This document shows, in pieces, positions 5,534-62,879 of a stretch of DNA of 64,000 bases. The stretch is from Bacillus sp. es.034. GTDB taxonomy: Bacteria; Bacillota; Bacilli; Bacillales; Bacillaceae_B. A model generated the notes under the pieces. That model saw only the letters and a list, made by a program, of their open reading frames with translations. It was not told the origin of the DNA and searched no databases. Made by a program: the position numbers and the translations under genes. The stretch covers positions 434,001 through 498,000 of the forward strand of contig NZ_PDIY01000001.1 in the NCBI RefSeq assembly GCF_002563655.1, in the 5' to 3' direction. Numbering within the stretch: position 1 is the stretch's first letter; every line of letters begins with the position of its first letter.

Positions 5534-5553
5534 TTTGAATCTGAAAGTCGGGC

Positions 5554-5595
5554 AACACAAAAAGAACAGCCATCCATGGCTGTTCTTTTTGTGTT
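5554..5595. terminator. Bidirectional terminator (ispA / ykuS-like)
   Basis: CACAAAAAGAACAGCCAT pairs with ATGGCTGTTCTTTTTGTG around a tiny loop, with A/T tracts on both sides. Confidence 0.92.
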
Positions 5596-5599
5596 GGGG

Positions 5600-6676: not shown

Positions 6677-8945
6677 ACGTTATAATGCGGTACTCTTTCC
6701 ATTCATCCAGCAATAAATCCTGGTATTTTGGGGTTAAATACCGATCATCGATCAGCCTCAGGACCCCTCTGTCCTCTTCCGAGCGGATAAGTCTTCCTCC
6801 TGATTGAAATACTTTATTCAACCCGGGATATACATAGGCATAATCATACCCATTCATTCCCATGCCATTAAAATAATCCTTGATGATTTCCTGTTCCACA
6901 GAAGGCCGGGGCAGCCCCACCCCTACCACGATTACACCCTTTAACCTGTCTCCTTTTAAATCGATCCCTTCTGAGAAGATCCCTCCCAGTACCGCAAGAC
7001 CGATAACAGGGTGTTCTCTATCAATCCGGAACTCACCGAGGAATTCTTCTCTTTCTCTCTCGCTCATATTAGGCTCCTGAATAAGGACCACAGCGTCCAA
7101 TGATTCTATATTCATTCTGTCATACGCTTCCTGCATATAAGAGTAAGAAGAAAAGAAGACGAGGTAATTCCCTTTGTATCCTTTGAACGTTTCCTCTATG
7201 GAACGCGTAATGATGGGAAGGGTCCGTTCCCTGTCCCTGAACCGGGTGGAAATGGGGTGGATTCCTACCTGCCACTGGTTGTACTGGAACGGGGAAGGAA
7301 TCAGGAATCGATAATCTTCTTCATTCCCCCCGAGCTGCTGAAAATAGTACGAAAACGGATGCAGTGTAGCAGAGAAAAATACCGATGATTGATAAGGACG
7401 TGTAACCTGTTTAATAAGCTTCGATGGATCGATGCAATAAAGTTTCGCTTCTAAATCTTGGGAGCTACGATCAATGACAAAGCGATGTTCTTCGGAGTAA
7501 AGGTTTGAAATCCTCACAAAACTGATGCTGTCGAAATACAGCTGCATAAATCCCTCCGACCACTCCCTGCCCGTTTCCCCCAGACACTGTTCAGCTATTT
7601 CAATGAAGCTTACAACCGACTCAACGAGTTGATCATCCAATTTGGCCCTGATGTCAGCACCCTCTTCTTTTTTCAATCGCAGAAACTGCTTATTAACTGC
7701 ATTAATTCCCTGCCTCAATCCATCATGATCAGGGTATTGCTTTTTGATTTGTAAGAAAGCAGACTTTTTCAGGGAGGCAGAATACATTTCCCTTCCCCTG
7801 CCTACGAGATTATGGGCCTCGTCTATGAGCAGATTCGTCCTTTTTTTACTTTCATCGCTCATTCTTTTCAAGGAAACCCTGGGGTCGAAGATATAGTTAT
7901 AATCGCAAATGACTCCGTCCACCAAGTAGGAAAGATCGATGGAATATTCAAAAGGACACACCTTATGCTTTTTCGCGTAGGATTCGAGGATCGGACGCGT
8001 GAGGATGGTTTCTCTGGTCAAAATATCAATCAGCGCTTCGTTTATGCGATCATAATAACCGTTTGCAAATTCACAATACTCCTTCTGACAAATCGTTTCT
8101 TCTTTAAAGCAGATTTTATCTTTTGCCGTGATCGTAACCGTCCTGTGGGCCAAACCCTCTTTTTCCAAAAGAAGAAGAGCTTCTTCTGCCACTGTACGGG
8201 TGATCGTTTTTGCCGTCACATAAAACCACTTGCTATTCCCTTCTGCCATTGCTTTTATGGTAGGAAACAGGGTCGAAATGGTTTTCCCTGTTCCCGTCGG
8301 AGCATTGGCATAAAGGGATTTCGATTCTGATACTGTTTTATATACGGCACCTGCGAGTTTTTTCTGTCCTTTACGATAGGAAGGATACGGAAATATCAGG
8401 TCCGTGACACTTTTCATTTTGTTTTCTTCATTTGTCAGGATCACAGTGGCAAACGGTGTGTAAGCAACCAGGGTTCCATTCACGATGCGTTCAAGCTCTT
8501 CAGTGGAATACATTTGCTTGAATGACTTCGTTCTTTCTGATTCCACCTCGATATAGGTTAATTGAACACCCACATTGGTCAGCTGCCTTTCCTTTGCCAG
8601 CAGGTATGCATAGCATTCTCCCTGAGCCCAGTGGACGCGGCTTCCTTCTTCAATCAAGTCCAGTTTTTTTGCCGTCGATTTGATTTCCTCCACGGTCACC
8701 TCTCCGTCATCATAGTGAATGCCATCACAACGACCTTCGAGTTGATAGACCAGACCACCCGCTTCTTTCTCCCCTTTCAGGAAGACTTCCTTTTCATCGC
8801 CTTCTTTATATTGTTTCTGCAGTTTCTGATGGAGTCTTGTGCCGGTGACCATAGAGGAACGAGCCTGAAATCTCAGATCGATGCTTCCTTCCTTATACAC
8901 AAACTCCACTAACTCCCTGATGGATACCTTCATGGTTTTCTTCAA
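6675..8945 (-). CDS. XPD/DinG-type Fe-S helicase with N-terminal PD-(D/E)XK-like domain
   Basis: A large superfamily 2 helicase of about 756 residues. An N-terminal region with GRCDGIHYDDG followed by EEIKST looks like a PD-(D/E)XK nuclease or Cas4-like fold. Then come Walker A APTGTGKT (near residue 218), four cysteines in the XPD Fe-S position (CF..ETICQKEYC, later KVCPFE), the DEAH box LIDEAH and motif VI SGGRLIRSEEDRG. It probably unwinds DNA 5'-3' in repair. The start is uncertain: a GTG at 8957 abuts the GGAGG site, a TTG at 8945 is well spaced and chosen, and the first ATG is at 8933. Confidence 0.9.
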   Translation of the reverse strand: MKKTMKVSIRELVEFVYKEGSIDLRFQARSSMVTGTRLHQKLQKQYKEGDEKEVFLKGEKEAGGLVYQLEGRCDGIHYDDGEVTVEEIKSTAKKLDLIEEGSRVHWAQGECYAYLLAKERQLTNVGVQLTYIEVESERTKSFKQMYSTEELERIVNGTLVAYTPFATVILTNEENKMKSVTDLIFPYPSYRKGQKKLAGAVYKTVSESKSLYANAPTGTGKTISTLFPTIKAMAEGNSKWFYVTAKTITRTVAEEALLLLEKEGLAHRTVTITAKDKICFKEETICQKEYCEFANGYYDRINEALIDILTRETILTRPILESYAKKHKVCPFEYSIDLSYLVDGVICDYNYIFDPRVSLKRMSDESKKRTNLLIDEAHNLVGRGREMYSASLKKSAFLQIKKQYPDHDGLRQGINAVNKQFLRLKKEEGADIRAKLDDQLVESVVSFIEIAEQCLGETGREWSEGFMQLYFDSISFVRISNLYSEEHRFVIDRSSQDLEAKLYCIDPSKLIKQVTRPYQSSVFFSATLHPFSYYFQQLGGNEEDYRFLIPSPFQYNQWQVGIHPISTRFRDRERTLPIITRSIEETFKGYKGNYLVFFSSYSYMQEAYDRMNIESLDAVVLIQEPNMSEREREEFLGEFRIDREHPVIGLAVLGGIFSEGIDLKGDRLKGVIVVGVGLPRPSVEQEIIKDYFNGMGMNGYDYAYVYPGLNKVFQSGGRLIRSEEDRGVLRLIDDRYLTPKYQDLLLDEWKEYRIIT

Positions 8946-20161: not shown

Positions 20162-20507
20162 TTGTAATCTTGTAACATACATTGAAACGATAGAGAAGAT
20201 AATTCGTAATTCTATTCTGTTTTGATTTAACAACTTATTCACACTGGATCGGCTTCGGAGCCGTTAGGATGTAAGAGAGGTAGGGCTTACGTCGTTTAGG
20301 TATATCAAACGACTCAAGGAATTGCCCGCGGCTGTTTATTATCTGCAAACAACGTTCAAGATATAAATATATTACTTGTGATGTTGCAAGTTACAGAATT
20401 GCCTTTATCCGATTAAAGGCAGCACTAAAGGGATCGCTAACGGGATGATTAGCCCCTTTACTAAAAAAAAACACCTCAAAAGTGCTGACTTTTGAGGTGT
20501 TTTTTTA
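20162..20507 (+). ncRNA. Candidate structured non-coding RNA, about 345 nt
   Basis: Between a consensus promoter and a strong terminator there is no ORF with a ribosome site, but many compact hairpins: CGGCT/AGCCG (20250-20263), GTAAG/CTTAC (20271-20290), GTCGTTT/AAACGAC (20291-20313), TGCCTTTA/TAAAGGCA (20400-20421), and AAAGGG..GCTAA/TTAGC..CCCTTT (20427-20459). It does not match the conserved cores I know of tmRNA, RNase P RNA or SRP RNA. A 6S-like or raiA-like class is possible but I cannot show it. It does not lead a gene: the next gene is on the opposite strand. Confidence 0.6.
20465..20507 (+). terminator. Strong intrinsic terminator of the candidate RNA
   Basis: ACACCTCAAAAGT pairs with ACTTTTGAGGTGT around GCTG, followed by T's; A-rich on the other side. 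Confidence 0.93.
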
Positions 20508-28767: not shown

Positions 28768-28810
28768 GAGAATGAAACAATCGAAATAAGCACTATGCTG
28801 CCTATTTTCC

Positions 28811-28892
28811 ACATCCCTACGCTAGTCCTAACTAACAGGTTCAGAGGGTCAGAACAGATTGTTCACTCTCAGCTTTCGCTCCCCTTGTGGTA
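28811..28892 (-). promoter_or_regulatory. TPP riboswitch (THI element)
   Basis: Reading the minus strand, the conserved parts are GGGGAGC, GCTGAGAGTGA, ACCCTCTGAACCTG and the 3' TAGCGTAGGGA. TPP binding should shut off thiT. Confidence 0.95.
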
Positions 28893-28963
28893 CCGTTTAT
28901 AAAGTTGTTAAGGTTTATTATACATGAAGAATGATAGTTTAAAAGCAAAACAGGAACTTTTTC

Positions 28964-44343: not shown

Positions 44344-45534
44344 CTATGCGGAAGTCTGATGGACAAGCTTTTTTTGTTTTCTTCCTTCAAGAATCGCCAC
44401 TACGAGGGCAATGAGTAAGAACAGGCTGGAAATCTGGAATAGTACACCCGTCTCGACATACTGAGCCAGCACGCCGAATACCAGGCCGCTCAACCCGATA
44501 CCAAGATCGATGGAAGAGAAGAACATACCGTTCGCCACTCCACGCCTATGATCCGGCGTCATGGACAATGTCCAGGATTGAAGGGTTGGAATGAGTGAGC
44601 CGAATCCAATTCCGAAAAGAAGACCGGCTACGACGATCAGTAAATCGGAATGAGCGAAAGACAGTGCCCACATGCCGATAAACGTCACAACGATACAGAA
44701 TAGCACAAGTCCCTTTGGTCCCCGTTCATCAAACCACTTTCCTGCAATCGGTCTTGAAAGGGACGCCATGATCGCATTACATAAGTAGAACAGGAAGATA
44801 TGCTGTATTCCACGTTCTTCCCCGAAGATGACGATGAATGTTACGATCGATCCATATCCAAATGTGACCATGATTGTAATGAAAGCAGGGAACCAGCTGG
44901 ATTTTTCGACTAAAGAACCAAGGTAGGAAAACTTCAAGTCTTCTTTCTTCGTTTCGATGACCACATTAGGCGTTTGATAATGAACGATCCCCAATAGGAA
45001 GATCGCGATGACACCCAGTACACTTGATGTGATGATCAGATTCGTGAAGGTCGTCACCTGGAATAAATAGATTCCGAGACTCGGAGCGATGATCATTCCG
45101 ATCGTAATCGACAAACCGTAGTACCCCATCCCTTCTCCTAAACGGGATTTAGGCACTACATCGACGGCTGCCGTCCCATTAACCGTCGTCGACCAGCCCC
45201 ATGCGAGTCCGTGTACAAAACGGAATAAAAGGAAGATGAACACCACACTCGACAATGGATAAATCACCGTAATTGCGAGTAACGAAATCACCCCTATCAA
45301 GACAAGGGGCTTCCTGTCCCTGTATTCCAACATAAATCCAATGAACGGCCGGCTTAACACAGCCCCGATTGAAAACAGCGTCGTCACCAGTCCAATCTCA
45401 AGCCCCGAAGCCCCAATCGACTTAATATAAGGAGGGAGCGTCGGAATCAACATCTGAAACGACATAAACACAAACAAATTCCCCACCATCAACATAATAA
45501 AAGACCTCGTCCATAAAGGATCCTTCACCTTCAT
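44344..45534 (-). CDS. Major facilitator superfamily transporter
   Basis: A 396-residue, 12-helix transporter. Motif A-like sequences are FIGFMLEYRDRKPLVLIG in the first half and ISRPIAGKWFDERGPK-like residues in the second. It resembles drug/H+ antiporter-like MFS members; the substrate is unknown. The start at 45534 is 7 nt after GGGAGG; the longer frame to 45642 adds an implausible leader. Confidence 0.9.
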   Translation of the reverse strand: MKVKDPLWTRSFIMLMVGNLFVFMSFQMLIPTLPPYIKSIGASGLEIGLVTTLFSIGAVLSRPFIGFMLEYRDRKPLVLIGVISLLAITVIYPLSSVVFIFLLFRFVHGLAWGWSTTVNGTAAVDVVPKSRLGEGMGYYGLSITIGMIIAPSLGIYLFQVTTFTNLIITSSVLGVIAIFLLGIVHYQTPNVVIETKKEDLKFSYLGSLVEKSSWFPAFITIMVTFGYGSIVTFIVIFGEERGIQHIFLFYLCNAIMASLSRPIAGKWFDERGPKGLVLFCIVVTFIGMWALSFAHSDLLIVVAGLLFGIGFGSLIPTLQSWTLSMTPDHRRGVANGMFFSSIDLGIGLSGLVFGVLAQYVETGVLFQISSLFLLIALVVAILEGRKQKKLVHQTSA

Positions 45535-45726
45535 AAAAAAACCTCCCTTCCCATCTATCAAACCCCACCAGCAGATGGGGATATTATTTCGGATTACTAA
45601 ATAATAGCACATAAACCACAATTGCGATACGAAATAAAACAACGGAAATGTGTAAGTTTTTAACAGAATGCAAATAGTAACAACGAGACTACATTCATTA
45701 TTATAGAGAAAATAATTCTTAACTGG

Positions 45727-45866
45727 TTTTTGGCTTATTCCGGGGATAGAGGGACAACCGACAGGAGAAAATTCATTTTATCCTGTCGGTTGTCCCTCTA
45801 TCCCCGGCCTTTCAGCGTAAGCTGAAAGGCGAGTGAAACGAACGTTTCACTCGAATAAGCCAAAAA
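45727..45866. repeat. Seamless 140-nt DNA cloverleaf (four perfect helices)
   Basis: An outer 14-bp stem (45727-45740 with 45853-45866) encloses three hairpins laid end to end: 45741-45806 (26-bp stem, 14-nt loop), 45807-45830 (10-bp stem, GTAA loop) and 45831-45852 (10-bp stem, 2-nt loop). Every base outside the loops is paired, with no unpaired base at the four-way junction and no mismatch. The long hairpin contains GAGGGAC/GTCCCTC, as in the dispersed hairpins elsewhere. It lies in the gap between the divergent MFS and pxpB genes. Confidence 0.85.
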
Positions 45867-46066
45867 ACTCCTTCACTATCATTAGGTGCAAAGTCTTAAT
45901 CTTTCTTATTCACACAGCTATTTCCCATACTTTTATTGAAAACACAAAGAATTATACTATAATAACAACATGGCCAAACTTTCTGAATAATCTTATTTAC
46001 TCGGCCACTCATACATATTTACTTTTTAATCCCTATAAAAATACAATCATGAATGGAGGTCATTCT

Positions 46067-46786
46067 TTGAATTATACGTTACGCCCATTAGGCGACCACG
46101 CCATCGTCATCCAATTAGGCAGCTCGATTCAGCAAGAAACCCACGATCTGGTGAAAGCGGTAACAAACATAATCGAAACCCACTCATTCGACTGGCTGGT
46201 AGAATATATCCCTGCCTTCACAACCGTCACACTCTATTACGATCCAATCAAAATCACCGAATCTCACAAACCCTTTCAAAACACGCTTCCATATAAGGTC
46301 GTCTGTTCTGAAATCGAACACATGCTTTCAACCCTGAAAACCGAAGAGAAAGAAGAAGCAAGAATCATCGACATCCCCGTATGCTACGGTGGAGAATTCG
46401 GGCCTGATCTTGAAGAAGTAGCCAACCATCATCAACTATCCACTGAAGAAGTCATCACGAAACATAGTAACGGTGACTATCTCGTATACATGATTGGCTT
46501 CGCACCCGGATTCCCTTACATCGGCGGCATGTCCCCGGATATCGCGACGCCTAGAAGAAAATCCCCACGCCTGAAAATACCGGCAGGCTCAGTTGGAATA
46601 GCAGGGGAACAAACAGGGGTATACCCCATCGAAACACCCGGTGGATGGCAGCTGATCGGCCGAACACCCATAAAACTGTTTCAACCTGATAATGCCGATT
46701 CACCAAGCTTACTGAAAGCCGGGGACCGAATCCGCTTCACACCGATTTCACTTGAAGAATATAAAGCATTGGAGGAGGAACAATGA
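46067..46786 (+). CDS. pxpB: 5-oxoprolinase subunit B (KipI-like)
   Basis: A 239-residue protein containing the GFAPGFPYIGGM core, PRRKSPRLKIPAGSVGIAG and IYP-type IETPGGWQLIGRTP motifs of PxpB/KipI. With PxpA and PxpC it hydrolyses 5-oxoproline to glutamate using ATP; KipI can also inhibit sporulation kinase A. The start is a TTG at 46067, 6 nt after GGAGGT. The gene overlaps pxpC by 4 bp. Confidence 0.92.
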   Translation: MNYTLRPLGDHAIVIQLGSSIQQETHDLVKAVTNIIETHSFDWLVEYIPAFTTVTLYYDPIKITESHKPFQNTLPYKVVCSEIEHMLSTLKTEEKEEARIIDIPVCYGGEFGPDLEEVANHHQLSTEEVITKHSNGDYLVYMIGFAPGFPYIGGMSPDIATPRRKSPRLKIPAGSVGIAGEQTGVYPIETPGGWQLIGRTPIKLFQPDNADSPSLLKAGDRIRFTPISLEEYKALEEEQ

Positions 46787-62837: not shown

Positions 62838-62879
62838 AAGAGGGACGGACCTTGAACTATTTCAAGGTCCGTCCCTCTT
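62838..62879. repeat. Perfect 19-bp hairpin, GGGACGGACCT family
   Basis: AAGAGGGACGGACCTTGAA (62838-62856) is mirrored exactly by TTCAAGGTCCGTCCCTCTT (62861-62879), with a CTAT loop. It lies between the neutral protease start and the end of gatB, with further copies elsewhere. Confidence 0.8.

Follow-up and report, generated by a model that had tools for sequence, protein, structure and literature searches.

A cloverleaf between two divergent genes

The window (the whole stretch of 64,000 nucleotides analysed here) lies in a Rossellomorea genome of 4.51 Mb assembled as one contig. Between a transporter gene and the divergently oriented pxpB it carries a cloverleaf with an outer stem and three hairpins, H1 to H3 (Table 1). 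The DNA fold of 45727-45866 reaches -68.1 kcal/mol, compared with -15.4 +/- 3.0 for shuffled sequences (z = -17.5; 0 of 200 shuffles as good), and the RNA fold with flanks (45700-45890) gives z = -16.0. Both folds bear out the four-way junction without any unpaired junction base that a preliminary description had drawn from the letters of this segment. The stem lengths proposed there, 14, 26, 10 and 10 bp, are impossible simultaneously because one base pair was entered twice; the junction slides by one pair, between 13/27/9/10 (DNA fold) and 14/26/10/9. Near the tip of H1 there is one G.A mismatch, with four further pairs above it.

Table 1. Features of the cloverleaf and its neighbours (window coordinates)
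Feature	Position	Strand	Basis or remark
Outer stem, left arm TTTTTGGCTTATT (consensus GATTTTTGGCTCATT)	45727..45739	+	Fold; matches inner part of the terminal repeats of MITEs from other genera
H1, long hairpin, 27 bp plus 4	45740..45807	+	Sequence fast-changing, pairing kept; missing from some copies
H2, CCTTTCAGC-loop-GCTGAAAGG	45808..45829	+	Hairpin with strongest conservation
H3, CGAGTGAAAC-loop-GTTTCACTCG	45830..45853	+	Fold and ortholog comparison
Outer stem, right arm AATAAGCCAAAAA	45854..45866	+	Fold and ortholog comparison
pxpB (5-oxoprolinase subunit B), right neighbour	46067..46786	+	TIGR00370
MFS transporter gene, divergent left neighbour	44344..45642 (ORF limits; true start probably inside)	-	PF07690
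Sigma-70-type promoter match before pxpB, TTGAAA-16-TATAAT, 11/12	45936..45963	+	Scan; 70 bp beyond cloverleaf

The promoter region of pxpB is conserved among orthologs, and promoters seem to flank the cloverleaf on both sides, that of pxpB from the scan and that of the MFS gene by eye. ARAGORN found no tRNA at 45000-46600, and a terminator scan found none on the cloverleaf and one elsewhere, at 45563-45580. Rfam matches on the cloverleaf belong to hairpin families, mostly miRNA, and stay far under the gathering scores. The three window matches at gathering score lie off the element: a T-box leader (1937-2146), the BsrC small RNA (20219-20304) and a TPP riboswitch (28797-28895).

Copies of the element in Bacillaceae

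Further copies, which the preliminary description had proposed to look for, exist in the same genome and scattered through other Bacillaceae. BLAST with the cloverleaf returned two more partial matches in the window's genome, and a covariance model (A1; H2, H3 and the right arm, built from 18 sequences) found five copies there, at 479727 (the window copy), 2248201, 2863411 (without H1), 3056462 and 3588524. When this genome and 60 relatives were searched by BLAST, 24 of the 61 matched, 23 of them in Rossellomorea and one, G053, from a different family; when the class was sampled evenly, 6 of 398 genomes carried a match. A contig scan with the H2 pattern gave at least 120 stretches, and nearly all matches listed come from the Bacillus group, including Niallia, Alkalihalobacillus, Oceanobacillus, Gracilibacillus, Peribacillus, Cytobacillus, Rossellomorea and other genera; the Actinomadura and Sphingobacteriales records among the matches listed have chance-level scores of at most 24 bits. 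The viral contigs gave no match to the H2 pattern. A record titled Chryseobacterium sp. ISL-80 (JAGGQZ010000013.1) holds a good Bacillaceae-type cloverleaf at 54.7 bits, and this contig may be misnamed or contaminated. In another record (L037, about 6900-7031), two near-copies of H1 lie on either side of a masked stretch of N, which may reflect faulty assembly at the palindrome.

Firmicutes stem-loop repeat families such as Bcr1 (PMC2267715) are likewise dispersed, intergenic and foldable. The Bacillus families tabulated in that paper differ in name and size, and the word 'cloverleaf' is absent from its text. The open-licence literature, as far as it was surveyed, yielded no description of the present cloverleaf MITE family.

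The mobile form and its link to IS1595

Many copies in A. macyae, Niallia, Bacillus sp. NTK071 and Bacillus sp. CECT 9360 lie between GGCTATGTTAATGAACAGTGTTGATTTTTGGCTCATT, or a sequence close to it, and its inverse. In this mobile form, terminal repeats GGCTATGTTAA...GTTGATTTTTGG surround the three-hairpin cloverleaf (the terminal repeat, TIR, is also given as GGCTATGTTAA..GTTGATTTTTG). The target duplications suggested as a check are present in these relatives. A script applied to all fetched loci collected 85 two-ended elements, among them some MITEs that share the ends and differ in the interior. The 8-bp direct repeat is perfect in 31 and has at most one mismatch in 48, compared with 2.3% for shuffled partners, and the duplications of these 48 are 93% AT. 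The MITEs lack a transposase gene, their lengths peak at 195 and 198 bp, and shorter forms measure 142 bp (without H1) and 106 bp (with H3 only). With up to two mismatches allowed, the TIR pattern occurs at 58 places in the genome of A. macyae and at 58 in that of Niallia, where the control gives 0. Across the order, the TIR pattern is found in 157 of 397 genomes (control pattern at most one hit per genome). Plasmids gave no match for the cloverleaf, one weak 25-base match for the TIR and none for another MITE end, and phages gave no TIR match. The idea that H1 is a unique sequence captured by each copy was rejected, since the A. macyae and Niallia copies shown share one or a few H1 types. Two loci of a Niallia genome (L249, L250) hold other MITEs of 185-186 bp, whose ends are of the GGCTCTGTTAA type and whose interior is not that of the cloverleaf family.

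The transposase partner was sought through 30 TIR loci returned from the search of the 397 genomes. At L264 an intact IS1595-family transposase (NCBIfam IS1595, 6.2e-60; Pfam PF12762) stands beside one TIR, and the second end was not found. A 1146-bp TIR-flanked element (L304/L280) has aaaaaata on both sides, a perfect 8-bp repeat, and encloses a broken IS1595-family gene (NCBIfam 3.9e-17, below the model cut-off). A 2381-bp TIR-flanked element (L294) has aactataa on both sides, again a perfect 8-bp repeat, and a 352-aa open frame 58% identical to the L264 protein. With that protein as query against seven genomes, short pieces were found in all four MITE-bearing genomes searched (G061-G064), weakly in the Niallia genome G062 (4.8e-7); an earlier PF12762 search of five genomes had given sub-cutoff matches only, in G064. 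Fifteen more TIR places in G061 and G062 show either single ends or elements of the MITE type; their ORFs of at least 150 aa include no transposase, as judged by eye. The ends and the duplication thus link the family to IS1595, and we infer that the MITE was moved by an IS1595-family enzyme. The RAYT or IS605-like transposase that had been envisaged as the agent is the wrong class, the linked enzyme being of the IS1595 (DDE) family.

An ISL3 transposase was also considered and rejected. PF01610 is present in three of six genomes (G000, the window's genome, G064 and G065) and absent from G061-G063, and G061 and G062 each hold about 58 MITE-type ends; moreover, the ISL3 ends in the window's genome are GGTTC..TGTTGGGG with other spacing, and the ISL3 loci L196 and L198 lack such a TIR. 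Two ISL3 elements of the window's genome (431571-432293 and 595051-595773) are near-identical (99.9% over 1394 bases), and one of them lies about 1.7 kb before the window start, with CAAAAAAG on both sides.

The flanks of the window copy show neither a TIR nor a recognisable target duplication. A search for an empty site gave none that could be aligned, the outgroup flanks being too diverged; the insertion of the window copy is therefore deduced from homology. None of the Rossellomorea copies compared has the full terminal repeat, and the inner part GTTGATTTTTGG persists at several of them. The early label 'transposable repeat' accordingly suits the family, with its copies, TIRs and 8-bp duplications in relatives, but not the window copy itself, which appears to be an old remnant without ends, a descendant of an IS1595-type MITE family and not a working member. 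Like IS1595-family insertion sequences (ISXO2-like transposase, PF12762 / NF033547) and the MITEs derived from them, the family has the same type of terminal repeat, 8-bp duplications and a small non-coding form; unlike them, it has a cloverleaf of three hairpins, one of which is variable, and a window copy that lacks ends and duplication, in a genome without such a transposase gene.

Vertical inheritance and uneven constraint at the window site

A pxpB query matched 31 of the 36 genomes of the genus, and 30 loci were read, the 17 closest (L166-L182) being the in-clade orthologs. Twelve of the 17 carry an intact element, L181 has a partial H1 deletion, L176 and L177 lack H1 and keep H2 and H3, and L172 and L182 are decayed. 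In 13 of the 17, H2 is perfect; two of its positions are mispaired in L171, which was placed among the intact ones, and one in L176. The orientation relative to pxpB is identical in all 15 recognisable elements. Four more distant loci (L183-L186) have no element within the 470 bases examined, and at L187-L195 part of the upstream region was covered. The window cloverleaf has thus been inherited vertically between the MFS gene and pxpB. Since five of the 17 orthologs are decayed or lack all or part of H1, whatever role the element has is dispensable.

The L264 protein found no IS1595 transposase in the window's genome. Across the genus, 12 of 36 genomes have IS1595 matches, six of them over the cut-off. 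Among the 12 genomes with an intact ortholog, 10 are without a match (G009 has one full match and G014 a weak one), and retention there is therefore not due to transposition.

The 12 intact orthologs were aligned (A2). Of 747 cells, 97.2% are paired; 14 of 63 pairs changed on both sides, with 42 double-change cells compared with four one-sided ones and at most six cells in slid controls. For 'further pair types', 261 of 500 shuffles reach the observed value; for the other measures none does. One pair reads A-T, G-C and T-A among close relatives. The case named beforehand as refuting, a unique, non-conserved copy whose arms vary without compensatory changes, is not what these data show: copies exist, and their arms vary on both sides. 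Fitch counts of double/single changes, on a pxpB tree weakly resolved near its tips and with gaps scored as changes, are 21/22 for H1, 0/2 for H2, 2/1 for H3 and 1/4 for the outer stem, in which 8 of 13 pairs are invariant.

The sequence of the parts evolves at very different rates. Mean pairwise difference among the 12 orthologs, which were chosen as intact so that rates are biased downward, is 0.019 in the H2 stem, 0.055 in H3, 0.066 in the outer stem, 0.185 in H1 and 0.47 in the H2 loop; in the nearest 50-bp flanks it is 0.36 and 0.45. Farther out it falls to 0.157 (left, 51-150), 0.064 (the pxpB promoter stretch) and 0.18 (the start of pxpB), so some flank conservation exists, and the rate contrast leans on the near flanks and the loops. 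H2 changes about 10 times more slowly than the longer H1, a difference for which template switching does not account; purifying selection acting on H2, on H3 and on the outer stem would, and we infer that it holds these parts.

Pairing probably renewed at the DNA level

Selection on an RNA would favour G.U over A.C on the transcribed strand. Among 93 distinct intact copies, picked by an RNA fold that favours G.U and mutually non-independent, H1 has 40 G.T, 39 A.C and 47 other mismatches in 2497 aligned positions, and in addition 53 indels; no mismatch occurs in the 680 positions of H2, and H3 has 4 G.T, 5 A.C and 4 others in 813. Counted by unique sequence contexts, there are 24 G.T, 24 A.C and 40 others. 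These equal counts disfavour an RNA, one of the substrates first proposed for the fold, and suggest that pairing is kept at the DNA level, probably by template switching, which copies arm from arm and would thus keep H1 paired.

Inversions are consistent with such copying. Exact inversions among differing loops amount to 6.9% for H1 (1.7% when column-shuffled), 8.0% for H2 (3.2%) and 3.2% for H3 (0.8%), the pairs compared being non-independent. An asymmetric inner part of H1 is inverted in L061 relative to L144. At the DUF1232 site of L076 (7361, minus strand), the whole element is inverted while the orientation of both flanking genes is kept, unlike in L156, L037, L147, L024 and L064.

Related behaviour has been described for other inverted repeats. 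Passages of PMC8604942 describe arm homogenisation and spacer inversion and, citing earlier work, report proteobacterial non-coding inverted repeats that are more conserved than their surroundings. Passages of PMC8794818 propose template switching for paired changes; paired changes combined with loop inversion are rare there and not enriched, so the mechanism is not settled in that study either. As far as these passages go, the present element resembles these repeats in that its arms change together and its loops or spacers become inverted, and departs from them in being a dispersed DNA element of mobile origin whose neighbouring hairpins are far more constrained in sequence.

Putative role and alternative explanations

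The Rossellomorea copies occupy mixed contexts. According to a simple ORF caller, 26 entries, many of them mutually orthologous, comprise 12 divergent and 9 tandem cases, none that is convergent, and 5 left unassigned. At three other sites, next to genes for a DUF1232 protein, a nitronate monooxygenase and a subtilisin-type peptidase (the last identified by eye), the core is kept and the near flanks have diverged, as judged by eye. At the peptidase site the element lies at the gene end, and at L034 directly behind the stop codon of a gene. Together with the inverted copy of L076, these contexts weaken a pure promoter-insulator reading and do not fit a single orientation-dependent promoter role. 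A GTGCTATGATA-like promoter motif was seen by eye near the copies of L156, L060, L064, L147 and L157.

We put at about 0.6 the probability that the window cloverleaf is an old, end-less copy of an IS1595-linked Bacillaceae MITE, inherited vertically, with its pairing renewed by template switching, its H2, H3 and outer stem under selection, and a putative function as a cis-acting DNA structure. On this account, the ancestor would have been a mobile MITE with terminal repeats around the cloverleaf and 8-bp AT-rich target duplications, as still found in relatives. The ends have lost their outer part in Rossellomorea, and the cloverleaf has been passed on between the two divergent genes where the orthologs now have it. 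During replication, one hairpin arm, above all in H1, may be copied from the other by template switching, with the result that arms change together, loops flip and, once, a whole element was inverted, as the signatures suggest. The rates suggest that the sequence of H2, H3 and the outer stem would be kept by purifying selection. The near-constancy of its folded core beside drifting adjacent DNA suggests, short of proof, that the window copy has come to be of use to its host. The likeliest role, judged from sequence comparison, would be that of a cis-acting DNA hairpin or cruciform recognised by a host protein and/or buffering supercoils between promoters; since promoters seem to flank the cloverleaf, it more probably acts as DNA than as RNA. 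A more specific form of this idea is tentative: the MITE interior may have turned into a conserved chromosomal site, an extruding three-hairpin cloverleaf read by a putative structure- and sequence-specific Bacillaceae protein, with H2 and H3 as recognition hairpins and H1 as a free, self-repairing spacer arm, kept through many speciations since transposition ceased. Neither the family nor its decay is unusual for transposons; the retained, unevenly constrained cloverleaf is the interesting part. One element would here separate two forces on hairpins that are usually confounded, as H1 drifts yet pairs, presumably by arm copying, and its neighbours hold their sequence, presumably by selection. 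The cloverleaf may therefore serve as a natural test bed for bacterial template switching, and it is a candidate domesticated MITE acting as a DNA structure.

The same inversions and coupled arm changes, together with the repeated loss of H1, could also come from a neutral MITE relic, in which arm homogenisation by template switching would by itself keep pairing and slow down change. Arm homogenisation, spacer inversion and conserved inverted repeats in the cited passages of PMC8604942, and template switching in those of PMC8794818, lend this some weight. However, H1 is the longest inverted repeat and would then be expected to be the most conserved, whereas H2 is about 10 times slower and its own loop differs by 0.47; unbiased copying between arms preserves pairing, not sequence; and the rarity of paired changes with loop inversion in PMC8794818 does not help this explanation. 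We consider it unlikely. Selection for the fold of a structured RNA, such as a leader, a small RNA or an RNase III substrate, would account for the very stable RNA fold and the covariation in the stems. Against it stand the equality of G.T and A.C (40:39; 24:24), reached despite a choice of copies that favours G.U, a best promoter match (before pxpB) downstream of the element, and Rfam matches far under gathering scores, which together make it improbable.

A terminator, possibly bidirectional, would agree with the GC-rich hairpins and with the L034 element just behind a stop codon, but the window site lies between divergent genes, both strands of the element end in an A run rather than a T run, and the scan found none on it, so that such a function is very improbable. 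Nothing was found in favour of an integration or resolution site, another of the early proposals. Hardly credible is a RAYT/REP (BIME-like) or IS605-type hairpin substrate, although the window's genome has two matches to RAYT-type (Y1-transposase) genes and H1 carries a GAGGGAC in common with other repeats. The repeats around one of these genes are GAGGGACGGACC hairpins, different from those of the cloverleaf, the H2 motif occurs at neither locus, and TIRs together with 8-bp duplications mark the mobile form. Orthologs read GGGGGAC, GTGGGAC or GAAGGAC where the window copy has GAGGGAC, and the link from GAGGGAC to RAYT is a chance one. REP/BIME systems with RAYT likewise consist of several copies of intergenic palindromes; motif, ends and transposase class are all different here.

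Elsewhere in the window, a perfect 19-bp hairpin at 62838-62879 (AAGAGGGACGGACC..) is probably a RAYT-linked REP, because it has the GAGGGACGGACC motif common to the repeats around the RAYT-type gene at 1057839 of the contig. A perfect 21-bp inverted repeat with AAAAAGAACAGCC lies at 5553-5596; it is perhaps a bidirectional terminator, and a similar one is found near the L034 copy.
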